Positions 94 through 4,024 of a stretch of DNA of 17,309 nucleotides are shown one piece after another. The stretch comes from Dethiosulfatibacter sp. (GTDB lineage Bacteria > Bacillota > Clostridia > Tissierellales > Dethiosulfatibacteraceae). A program made the translations under genes and the position numbers. Under the pieces are notes generated by a model. It was not told where the DNA came from, did no database searches, and saw only the letters and a program-made list of their open reading frames with translations. Location of the stretch: assembly GCA_030591825.1 (NCBI GenBank), contig JAUVAG010000001.1, positions 1-17,309 of the forward strand, given 5' to 3'. Each line of letters starts with the position of its first letter. Within the stretch, counting starts at the first letter, position 1.

Positions 94-350
94 AAGAAAG
101 CAGCTACGCTGCGTTATCCGGGTCACGATTCATGTGACCATAACGGATATTAAGAGGTCGCAGAAAGTTTCCTTAACGGCGTAATACCAACGCTTCAAGG
201 GATTACGCATTTTTAACTTTCTTAGACTACAAGAAAGCAGCTACGCTGCATCAACGGTACAAGCCGTTGTTCAAACGCGTGGAAAGTTTTCCTTAAACGC
301 ATAAAACCAACGATTCACAGGTTTATGCATATTTTAACTTTCCTAAGCTG
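94..350. repeat. Tandem pair of structured elements, family A
   Basis: Two head-to-tail units begin at 94 and 231. They share AAGAAAGCAGCTACGCTGC exactly (94-112 and 231-249), a GAAAGTTT(T)CCTTAA block (163-176 and 282-296) and a TTTTAACTTTC block (211-221 and 332-342). Each unit folds the same way. An outer helix pairs 162-169 with 215-222 in unit 1 and 281-288 with 336-343 in unit 2. An inner helix pairs 179-185 with 202-208, and 299-305 with 322-328. Three base pairs differ between units but stay paired (162-222 A-T to 281-343 G-C; 181-206 G-C to 301-326 A-T; 185-202 T-A to 305-322 A-T), which argues for selection on an RNA or single-stranded DNA fold. The + strand is likely because a terminator follows. 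The family is not one I recognise. Confidence 0.6.
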
Positions 351-394
351 CAAGAAGAAGTCTTAATAAACAATTTACCATTTATACGGAATAT

Positions 395-443: not shown

Positions 444-682
444 GGTAGTTTAATGCCACTCTAAGTTTCATCCCAATTCATGCATTCACATTATCCCGTT
501 GAAGCATCGAGATAATATTCATACACGAATTGATTCAACTACAGTGTGACATTGAAACTTAGGTAGTTTAATGCCACTCTAAGTTTCGTACTTATTTATC
601 CAATAATCAGTATCCAGTTGAAGCATCCAGATACTTTTATTGTATAAATAAACTCAACTACAGTGTGACATTAAAACTTAGG
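444..682 (+). ncRNA. Tandem pair of ~118-nt structured elements, family B (candidate leader RNA)
   Basis: Copy 1 spans about 444-561 and copy 2 about 562-681, end to end. The left arms (26 nt) are identical and the right arms (about 27 nt) differ at one base. Left and right arms are complementary: CTAAGTTTC with GAAACTTAG, and GTAGTT with AACTAC. The central parts differ in sequence but both form a long hairpin: copy 1 pairs 474-479 with 527-532 and 490-495 with 511-516; copy 2 pairs 592-599 with 644-651, 601-606 with 637-642 and 609-614 with 630-635. Both present the conserved loop GTTGAAGCATC. Pair 491-515 (T-A) becomes 610-634 (G-C). Copy 2 ends on the ribosome binding site of the next gene, so a cis-regulatory leader is possible; a mobile repeat is the alternative. 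I do not recognise a known riboswitch or ribozyme class. Confidence 0.55.
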
Positions 683-690
683 AGACCATA

Positions 691-2592
691 ATGAACAATA
701 AAATTTTTGAAAAACTAAATTACTATGATATTAAAGAAGAACTTAAAAACCATGCTTTGAGCGAACTAGGTAAGGATAAGATAGAAAAACTCGAACCTTT
801 AACCTCAAGAAAAGGTATAGAAAATAGTCTTGAAAAGACAACTGAGGCAGTTGAAATACTGAGTCAGGGTCGAGGAGTTCCAATGTACGGACTTTCAGCA
901 GTGAATGCTTATATTGACAAAGCTGATAAGGGGGTAATCCTTAAACCATCGGAGCTTGTGAAGATTGCAGACTTTCAGCGGGGCTGCCTTTCAATGAAAA
1001 AATTCATCCAGGACTTCAAGTACATGGCTCCGGTCCTGTCATCATTTTCTGTAAACCTCAACGAATGTGGCAGTCTGGAGGATGAAATACTCGCTTGCAT
1101 AGGTGGTTCAGAACTGAGACAGGATGCTTCTCCGAAACTTGGGAAACTGAACAAGAAGAAGAAATCAGCAGAAGACAGGATAAGGACAAAACTTGAATCA
1201 TTGATATCCAACTCAAGTTATTCAAAATATCTACAGGATTCCTTTGTGGCAGAAAGGATGGGGAAATACACTCTCCCTGTAAAAAGGGCATACAAAAGCA
1301 TGGTGAAAGGATCCGTAATCGATGAAAGTTCAACGGGATCCACTGTTTTCATAGAGCCCGATTCAGTTAAGAAGATGACTGTGGAAATGGAACATATAAA
1401 TGCTGAAATCCAGGAAGAGGAATATCAAATCCTTTCATCACTGACAGGCTTTGTTTCAATGTATAAAAGAGAGCTTGTAATGAATGCAGACATAATGAGC
1501 GAGTATGATTTTGCCTTTGCCAAGGGAAAATACAGTCTGTCAATAAATGGAACCCAGCCTGAAATATCTCATGGAGATGAATTCAGGATAAGAAGAGGAA
1601 AGCATCCCCTGATTGAAGATCCCGTACCCCTAAATTTTCAAGTAGGAAAAGATTTTCGGACACTGGTGATAACAGGTCCAAACACTGGTGGAAAGACAAT
1701 AGTACTAAAGACTGTAGGTCTAATGACTCTTATGCTTCAGTCCGGACTTCATGTACCTGTTGGAGAAGGAAGCACATTCCCCGTCTTCGACAATGTATTT
1801 GTTGATGTTGGAGATGCACAGGATATAAAAAATTCACTGAGTACATTTTCAGGGCATATGAAAAACCTGGTGGACATAACTAACAAGGCAGATTCAAAAT
1901 CCCTTGTACTTCTTGACGAAATAGGTACTGGAACAGATCCCCGGGAAGGAGCAGCAATAGGTTCTGCAGTTCTTGAGGACCTTTATAAGAACGGTGCCCT
2001 TACTGTTGTCACCACCCACTACAGCAAAATCAAGGATTTTGCCGAAGAAATGACAGGATTTCAAAATGCCAAGATGCTCTTTAACGCTGAAACGCTGGAG
2101 CCTTACTACGAGCTTGTCATAGGTGATGCGGGAGAAAGTAATGCACTTTGGATATCTGAACGCCTTGGCCTTAAAAAGTCAATACTGAAAAGGTCCTTGG
2201 AACTTACTGGTGAGAAGGAAATTTCAGCAGTCATAAGAGCAAAAATAATAAGTCCAAAAATCAGAAAGCCAGATAAGGAAAGGGTAAAAAAGGAGAAGAC
2301 ACTCTTCAAGGGAGACCTTGTTTTAAGCCTTGAAGACAATGAAAAGGCAATAGTATTCGAAGGTACCGACGAAAAAGGAATGATTACCCTTTCAAGGGAC
2401 TACAGCTTCTTCAAGCTGCCTGTCAAAAGAGTAAAGCTTCTTGGAAAGGCATCGGAACTCTATCCCCCGGACTACGATATGGACCAACTCTTCTATTCCT
2501 TCAAGGAAAGGAAATTCGACAAGGATGTAACCAAGGGAAGGATGAAAAGCTTTAAAGATTTAAAGGAAAGACTTGAAAATATAAAGAATTAA
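691..2592 (+). CDS. MutS2-like DNA-binding ATPase without Smr domain
   Basis: The 633-residue product matches the MutS2 branch of the MutS family from its N-terminus. Residues about 1-290 form the core/clamp region. The ATPase follows, with Walker A GPNTGGKT at 329-336, a signature segment STFSGHMKN near 387-395, and Walker B LLDEIGTGTDP with D409-E410. The His of TTHYS follows as usual. Typical MutS2 is about 780 residues and ends in an Smr endonuclease domain; here the protein stops after a short beta-rich, KOW-like stretch (about 550-600) and a basic tail, with no Smr motif. Family role: binding branched DNA or collided ribosomes and limiting recombination, driven by ATP. Without Smr a nicking activity is not expected. 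The start is set by GGAG at 681-684. The gene directly follows the family B repeats. Confidence 0.88.
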   Translation: MNNKIFEKLNYYDIKEELKNHALSELGKDKIEKLEPLTSRKGIENSLEKTTEAVEILSQGRGVPMYGLSAVNAYIDKADKGVILKPSELVKIADFQRGCLSMKKFIQDFKYMAPVLSSFSVNLNECGSLEDEILACIGGSELRQDASPKLGKLNKKKKSAEDRIRTKLESLISNSSYSKYLQDSFVAERMGKYTLPVKRAYKSMVKGSVIDESSTGSTVFIEPDSVKKMTVEMEHINAEIQEEEYQILSSLTGFVSMYKRELVMNADIMSEYDFAFAKGKYSLSINGTQPEISHGDEFRIRRGKHPLIEDPVPLNFQVGKDFRTLVITGPNTGGKTIVLKTVGLMTLMLQSGLHVPVGEGSTFPVFDNVFVDVGDAQDIKNSLSTFSGHMKNLVDITNKADSKSLVLLDEIGTGTDPREGAAIGSAVLEDLYKNGALTVVTTHYSKIKDFAEEMTGFQNAKMLFNAETLEPYYELVIGDAGESNALWISERLGLKKSILKRSLELTGEKEISAVIRAKIISPKIRKPDKERVKKEKTLFKGDLVLSLEDNEKAIVFEGTDEKGMITLSRDYSFFKLPVKRVKLLGKASELYPPDYDMDQLFYSFKERKFDKDVTKGRMKSFKDLKERLENIKN

Positions 2593-3085: not shown

Positions 3086-4024
3086 ATGATCAATATCTAT
3101 AAAACTGTTGACGACAATCTGTTTACTTTGAAGGAAATCGAGGACGGAGCTTGGATAAGTCTTATAAGTCCTACACCAGAAGAGCTTGAGTTCATAGAAG
3201 ATGAGCTTAATGTGGACATAGACTTCCTGAGAGCTGCCCTAGACGAAGAGGAATACTCACGTATAGAGATAGAAGATGACCAAACTCTTATACTGGTAGA
3301 CATTCCCTTTCTAGACGACGAAGATGAAGAACACCCATTCTATTCCACCCTGCCTTTTGGCATCATAATAGCTGGAAAGAATATCATTACCGTATGTTTG
3401 GAAGATACCATAGTAATCGACCAGTTTGAAAAGAACAGCGTAAGGTCATTCTATACATTCAAAAGATACAGGTTTCTACTTCAGCTGCTGTTCAAGATAT
3501 CAAAAAGGTACCTTCTATATCTTAAACAAATAGACAGGACGAGTACAAGCATAGAAAGGCAACTTCACAAATCTATGAAAAACAGAGAACTCATACAGCT
3601 TCTGGACCTGGAGAAGTCTCTTGTTTACTTTAGTACATCTTTAAAAACTAACGAAGTTGTACTAAATAAAATGATGAAGCTGGATGCAATAAAGCGCTAT
3701 CCAGAGGACGAAGACCTTCTCGAGGATGTAATAATAGAAAACAAGCAGGCCATTGAGATGGCAAGTATATACAGTGGAATTCTAAGTGGAATGATGGACG
3801 CCTTCGCCTCTGTCATATCCAACAATCTCAACATAGTCATGAAAATGCTGACATCAATTACAATAATCATGGCCATACCAACAATGATAGCAAGCTTCTA
3901 TGGAATGAACGTGAGATGGCTACCCATGTCAAACAATCCAAATGCATTCTGGATGATAATGGTAATATCTGGAATATTGTCCCTCATTGCAGGAATCTTA
4001 CTAACAAAGAAAAAGATGTTTTAG
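3086..4024 (+). CDS. corA: CorA-family magnesium transporter
   Basis: The 312-residue product is a CorA-type divalent cation channel of normal length. A large acidic cytoplasmic N-terminal part (about 1-245, rich in Glu/Asp) is followed by two C-terminal membrane helices (about 250-270 and 288-306). The signature YGMNV is present with G273-M274-N275 at the end of the first helix, and a basic tail (TKKKMF) closes the protein. CorA proteins form pentamers that let Mg2+ (sometimes Co2+ or Ni2+) in, gated by the cytoplasmic domain. The gene has its own promoter, an M-box riboswitch and a terminator upstream, so it should be expressed when Mg2+ is low. GAGGTG lies 7 nt before the ATG. A terminator follows at 4052-4085, making it monocistronic. 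Confidence 0.95.
   Translation: MINIYKTVDDNLFTLKEIEDGAWISLISPTPEELEFIEDELNVDIDFLRAALDEEEYSRIEIEDDQTLILVDIPFLDDEDEEHPFYSTLPFGIIIAGKNIITVCLEDTIVIDQFEKNSVRSFYTFKRYRFLLQLLFKISKRYLLYLKQIDRTSTSIERQLHKSMKNRELIQLLDLEKSLVYFSTSLKTNEVVLNKMMKLDAIKRYPEDEDLLEDVIIENKQAIEMASIYSGILSGMMDAFASVISNNLNIVMKMLTSITIIMAIPTMIASFYGMNVRWLPMSNNPNAFWMIMVISGILSLIAGILLTKKKMF

Follow-up and report, generated by a model that had tools for sequence, protein, structure and literature searches.

The window, that is, the whole stretch of 17,309 nucleotides analysed here, contains a tandem of two copies of an element of about 115 nt (approximately 443-561 and 561-682), located just upstream of a MutS2-like gene. This gene (691-2592, plus strand, start at 691) encodes a protein of 633 aa that matches the mutS2 profile TIGR01069 with 593.5 bits and also MutS_V. 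The TIGR01069 match covers only positions 1-518 of the 790 of the profile, so this protein either lacks the C-terminal part of MutS2 or has a different one. The Shine-Dalgarno (SD) sequence of the gene, AGGAG (680-684, plus), adjoins the second copy. An SD-like sequence, AGGTAG (561-566, plus), links the two copies, and another, AAGGT (442-446, plus), forms the left junction of the first copy, to the right of which lies the second copy alone, with no directly adjoining SD. About 20 nt before the first copy is a terminator-like stem with a T-rich tail (395-427, plus); positions 1-760 hold three terminator-like sites, compared with 0.4 expected. Further downstream, an M-box (ykoK) riboswitch found with Rfam (2726-2888, plus, 131.4 bits) precedes an ORF (3086-4024) which, by eye, resembles a CorA-type transporter.

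The sequence-only reading had described two tandem structured copies in which arms and loop are conserved and the stems are copy-specific but compensated, and this description was confirmed. The left arms are identical over all 27 nt (443-469 and 561-587) and the right arms differ by a single base. Both copies carry GTTGAAGCATC (498-508 and 617-627), and the T-A pair 491-515 of copy 1 is replaced by G-C at 610-634 in copy 2. Both elements fold better on the minus strand. Copy 1, the distal one (447-558), reaches 78.1 bits with the covariance model R1 described below, with folding z-scores of -7.8 on the minus and -1.6 on the plus strand; the corresponding values of the gene-proximal copy 2 (565-677) are 100.1 bits, -6.9 and -2.4. 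Copy 1 is built of an outer stem, AGTT/AACT, a GA/GA internal loop, a variable stem and a 9-nt loop, ATGCTTCAA. Copy 2 is the reciprocal best match of a copy that precedes the same gene in Dethiosulfatibacter aminovorans (L088:3006-3116) and, judged by sequence, is its orthologue. Sequence similar to the 395-427 stem also precedes the L088 copy.

When the genome from which the window comes (G000, 68% complete) was searched with the window stretch, more dispersed copies were obtained. Eighteen aligned copies of this genome, including both window copies, served as the seed of R1, a covariance model on the minus strand. At 50 bits or more, 66 copies were detected, 28 in the own genome and 38 in D. 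aminovorans DSM 17477 (G001). They are what remained of 108 R1 match rows once reverse-strand matches to copies already counted, doubles due to overlapping loci, and six forward rows below 50 bits (L096, L079:2920, L088:3755, L084:2951, L056:1385 and L044:1111) had been removed. Of the 66, four are truncated at the end of a stretch. With its R1 scores and tens of relatives, the window pair is beyond chance, both copies being part of the R1 seed, and the element is dispersed and not special to the MutS2-like locus.

The distribution of the element appears genus-specific. Among 60 genomes of relatives, R1 matched in two, both of them Dethiosulfatibacter, and had no match in the 58 others; within the family, two of eight genomes were positive and six gave no match. 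Across the class, one of 291 genomes, the own genome, was positive in an insensitive run in which 12 candidates were scored per genome. A pattern scan of genome contigs returned 14 stretches, nine of them from D. aminovorans. The other five (Mucilaginibacter, two Bacteroidetes, Lachnospiraceae and Spongiibacteraceae) have no R1 match and were rejected as chance. Viral contigs had no match to the one pattern searched. A check against Rfam gave no family at the gathering score and weak matches at relaxed thresholds, in agreement with the earlier failure to assign the pair to a known RNA class. Narrow literature searches gave no description of the element, and no SD-targeted repeat family appeared either in these searches or in the available parts of PMC3049150, PMC6006769 and PMC3446304.

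Read on the minus strand, the element forms a single nested rod. Its outer stem, GTTTTA...TAAAAC, is followed inwards by a short unpaired segment, AGTT/AACT, a 2x2 GA/GA internal loop, GT/AC and a 2-nt bulge, and the tip is a sequence-variable stem of some 26 pairs capped by the 9-nt loop A[TC]GNTTCAA. Among 36 D. aminovorans copies, none of which belongs to the R1 seed, AGTTGAGT and ACGAAACT are almost invariant, while two-sided changes occur at 36 of 45 pairs. The covariation score of these copies is 0.466, compared with 0.176 (sd 0.009) in shuffles and at most 0.127 with slid partners, in an alignment that was fitted to the R1 structure and is thus biased towards it. The 18 seed copies show two-sided changes at 35 of 45 pairs. 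These changes bear out the proposal of a compensated structure as opposed to a simple repeat. The pseudoknots or mutually exclusive folds that had been deduced from non-nested complementary blocks were not supported: the GTAGTT/AACTAC and CTAAGTTTC/GAAACTTAG blocks are not conserved, and 58.9% of their cells pair in the 18 copies, compared with 57.8% in shuffles.

An SD-like motif and an ORF start lie just to the right of 42 of the 66 copies (14/28 in the own genome and 28/38 in D. aminovorans), with a distance of 0-3 nt between element and SD in 39 of the 42. Among the 24 remaining copies are upstream units of tandem arrays, isolated copies and some truncated at a contig end. In a logo of 41 copies, the left junction is mostly AA[GT]GA and the right one C[TC]AGGAGG or A[TC]AGGAGG, so that SD-like sequence is present at both. 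It differs in length and origin between sites, and L029 and L078 have some 25 additional nt on the left side of the element; a target duplication is read from few sites. Shortened or halved derivatives were also found at SDs. The downstream proteins, judged from their first residues, are of many unrelated kinds. The sequence-only reading had set a structured RNA against a repeat scattered at random sites in the manner of a transposable one; dispersal of that type is largely what was found, but it is not random, since 42 of 66 copies abut an SD and a start. Where the downstream gene of a tandem array is identified, the gene-proximal copy has the highest score in seven of eight arrays (L051 is the exception), as an arrival of new copies at the SD would predict. 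The arrays L033, L052 and L023, which have no identified downstream gene, are outside this count. Upstream of aspS (L039), at least six short tandem units of the AAGGATGTTTTAATTCACACATTAAATC type, which look like derivatives consisting of the outer stem only, lie between a T-box and a full copy.

Filled and empty sites were compared between the two species. At four genes (L118, L121, L158 and L159), one species has the element and the orthologue in the other has an element-free SD, the direction of gain or loss being unpolarised. For copies present only in the own genome, the D. aminovorans orthologues of six genes were checked. Two have element-free SDs (L118 and L121), the leader of a third is element-free (L117), and L116 is an element-free upstream region, the counterpart of an own-genome copy that does not abut its SD. 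By eye, L119 retains a decayed right half, and L120 bears a shortened copy of 69 nt which was detected by R1. In the reverse comparison, the 68%-complete own genome was queried with twelve D. aminovorans gene starts; three were matched, two of which are orthologues (L158 and L159, both with element-free SDs) and the third, L160, is not. R1 gave no match at the sites in L116-L119, L121, L158 and L159, and a weak match of 17.4 bits elsewhere in L118. At L058/L159, a lysine riboswitch precedes the gene in both species (L058:1229-1402 and L159:1212-1389; the D. aminovorans gene starts with MKSVIRIRMSSHDAHYGGG), and only in D. aminovorans is the element found between the riboswitch and the SD. Similarly, aspS (L039/L117) has a T-box in both species and the element only in the own genome.

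Flank comparison also revealed 12 loci common to both species. Reciprocal best matches were found at four of them (window/L088, L025/L053, L028/L054 and L044/L084), and at two others (L034/L051 and L040/L090) similarity is no higher than average, which suggests that some copies may have descended in place and others may have been replaced. The copies at shared loci differ by 39 two-sided Watson-Crick changes, 33 single changes to other mismatches, and 30 exchanges between Watson-Crick pairs and minus-strand wobbles compared with seven involving plus-strand wobbles. Identities are 0.64-0.90 for the elements (12 loci) and 0.42-0.89 for the upstream flanks (11 loci), several of which are themselves element relics, so these mixed values are no clean proof of constraint in place. 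A role for the host in the leader is nevertheless possible, as twelve loci are common to the species and their pairs are kept.

The strand under constraint could be recognised from the folding and from the imperfect pairs. With RNA parameters, the minus strand gives the better fold in 59 of 63 full copies (mean -37.8 kcal/mol, compared with -28.3 for the plus strand), and with DNA parameters it is again the better one in 59 of 63. Counts of imperfect pairs may be skewed when the pair set is selected on one strand: the RNAalifold plus-strand set leaves out A.C-rich columns and shows little bias, and the minus-derived set favours G.U. The mismatches were therefore recounted with a strand-symmetric pairing, in which the arms were paired by Watson-Crick matches alone with equal penalties and 63 of the 66 copies could be parsed. 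The stems contain 139 mismatches that are A.C on the plus strand (G.U on the minus) and 20 that are G.U on the plus strand; copy by copy, 54 lean to the minus strand, two to the plus strand and seven are ties. The bias is 90 to 18 without the four loop-adjoining pairs, 71 to 10 in 27 representatives below 80% identity (R1 alignment), 74 to 4 in copies away from an SD, and 10 to 0 in the few copies, three in all, that lie opposite to, or away from, the neighbouring gene. It is weaker in the outer stem (32 to 15). For one hairpin from another repeat family of the same genomes, the count in 23 copies was 6 to 3, with no clear bias. These results indicate that the constraint acts on the strand antisense to the gene, either as RNA or as single-stranded DNA. 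The tandem G.A motif would suit both.

Taken together, these features favour, with a probability of roughly 0.6, the reading of the window pair as a tandem of a genus-specific, non-autonomous family of mobile hairpins of about 115 nt that inserts at SDs.

The first alternative, which we consider improbable although it survives best, is a cis-acting leader RNA, a rod in the sense-strand mRNA beside the SD which would control translation or mRNA stability of many genes and would have spread by duplication. The element abuts the SD, the shared loci keep their pairing, the plus strand folds as well (mean -28.3 kcal/mol), and promoter-like scores upstream of the elements are slightly raised (6.32, compared with 5.66 in shuffled sequence). 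However, such an RNA would have to carry mainly A.C mismatches (139, compared with 20 G.U), its downstream genes are of many kinds, some orthologues lack it, a T-box or lysine riboswitch already lies upstream at two genes, and homologues outside the genus are absent from the genomes searched. For the same reasons, namely the constrained antisense strand, the unrelated genes, the element-free orthologues and the riboswitches already upstream, the earlier suggestion of a tandem riboswitch or ribozyme in the mRNA was not supported.

An ordinary MITE, mobilised in trans by a DDE transposase acting on its double-stranded terminal repeats and with the SD duplicated as target, would fit the terminal GTTTTA/TAAAAC, the SD-like sequence on either side and the element-free sites, but it leaves the strand bias and the conserved internal and apical loops unexplained and is quite unlikely. 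Slightly less credible still is an antisense RNA made from each copy and functioning in place on the minus strand. The differences between orthologous copies (30 to 7 towards minus-strand wobble) would agree with it; against it stand the element-free orthologues and the first 120 nt to the right of the elements, where minus-strand promoter-like sites are not in excess (5.76, compared with 5.70 shuffled). In the next 120 nt some excess was found (6.22 and 5.39). Finally, template-switch correction within hairpins can mimic covariation, but neutral palindromes kept symmetrical in this way, with no selected structure, should have as many G.T as A.C mismatches and lack a conserved internal loop, in contrast with the ratio of 139 to 20 and the almost invariant AGTTGAGT and ACGAAACT of the 36 copies, and are very improbable.

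Under the mobile hairpin reading, movement probably takes place via a single-stranded intermediate. The folded antisense strand would be recognised by the mobilising machinery as single-stranded DNA or RNA. The target would be the SD itself, CCTCCT on the antisense strand, beside which the element would be joined, and repeated insertion at one SD would give rise to arrays. A Y1/HUH enzyme would account for the strand, the hairpin and the fixed target, whereas an RNA intermediate primed at the SD would account for the SD-like sequence at both ends. Neither type of enzyme is linked to the element; an HUH single-strand transposase of the Y1/REP type is somewhat more likely than an RNA intermediate. 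Some copies may also act as 5' UTR modules, as suggested by the shared loci.

Both species have a RAYT-like Y1 transposase gene of 277 aa (L100:1036-1869 and L103:1036-1869, minus strand), the start and end of the two sequences being nearly alike. These Y1_Tnp proteins score 72.2 and 77.5 bits with NF047646, below the NCBI cut-off of 80. The gene is not flanked by the element, as R1 had no match in L097-L103, and the second repeat family described below is likewise absent beside it. HUH transposition predicts a lagging-strand preference with copies head-on to replication; by GC skew, 18 of 27 copies are co-directional. No reverse transcriptase was found in the 68%-complete own genome; D. aminovorans has two, one of them with an internal stop. 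A search with half-elements revealed no transposase gene and no ORF-bearing, autonomous version within the stretches examined. The second family of dispersed hairpins is represented in the window at 94-356 (plus) and in L104-L115, with 44 matches in the own genome and 42 in D. aminovorans. In the own genome, many of its copies are 92-99% identical and they frequently lie at the end of a contig. Among its hairpin loops, two (GCTTCAT and AACGCTTCAA) resemble the minus-strand loop of the first element.

Going further, we tentatively propose, at less than even odds, a class of RBS-homing elements. Their antisense strand, carrying tandem G.A and a conserved loop, would form a rod of nearly fixed length and would move as a single strand, guided to the SD by a short anti-SD-like target or tail (CCTCCT/TCCTT); the SD would be left intact, and some copies would become 5' UTR modules. 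In such a class, the hosts would tolerate the element because the SD is kept after insertion. If this holds, a mobile element can exploit ribosome-binding sites as a safe place to insert, a logic comparable to that of mobile elements targeting tRNA genes or glmS. The element also calls for caution in RNA discovery. Tens of covarying copies in front of genes resemble a riboswitch class, and the test of G.U against A.C reveals that the other strand is constrained. Furthermore, filled and empty sites in two related species make the effect on translation directly testable.

The element is one of the broad kind of small interspersed bacterial repeats that includes REP/REPIN, bcr and BOX. Like it, REPs and REPINs are dispersed imperfect palindromes, thought to be moved on one single strand by a Y1 transposase, the RAYT, and a RAYT-like gene is also present in both Dethiosulfatibacter species. 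In the available part of the source, REPs measure 20-40 bp (PMC3733652), whereas the element is about 115 nt long, lies mostly at gene starts and has no copy beside the RAYT-like gene. The IS200/IS605 family shares strand-specific hairpins with the element, and CCTCCT would suit its mode of joining, next to a short fixed target on a single strand. In the element, by contrast, no transposase gene and no lagging-strand bias were found, and SD-like sequence is present at both junctions. BOX differs in being modular, with boxA, boxB and boxC. BOX, RUP and SPRITE of pneumococcus are, like the element, parasite-like interspersed repeats, and one BOX forms a composite with T-box riboswitches; the available part of the source gives no SD targeting for them (PMC3049150). 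The bcr1-3 repeats of the Bacillus cereus group, called MITE-like, are also group-specific, non-coding, hairpin-forming and often located in UTRs, but the element abuts the SD and has an antisense-strand bias, neither of which is described for bcr in the part of PMC3446304 available. Finally, the riboswitch classes of 5' UTRs share with the element a compensated structure before the start codon, whereas the element is constrained on the antisense strand and precedes unrelated genes that have element-free orthologues.
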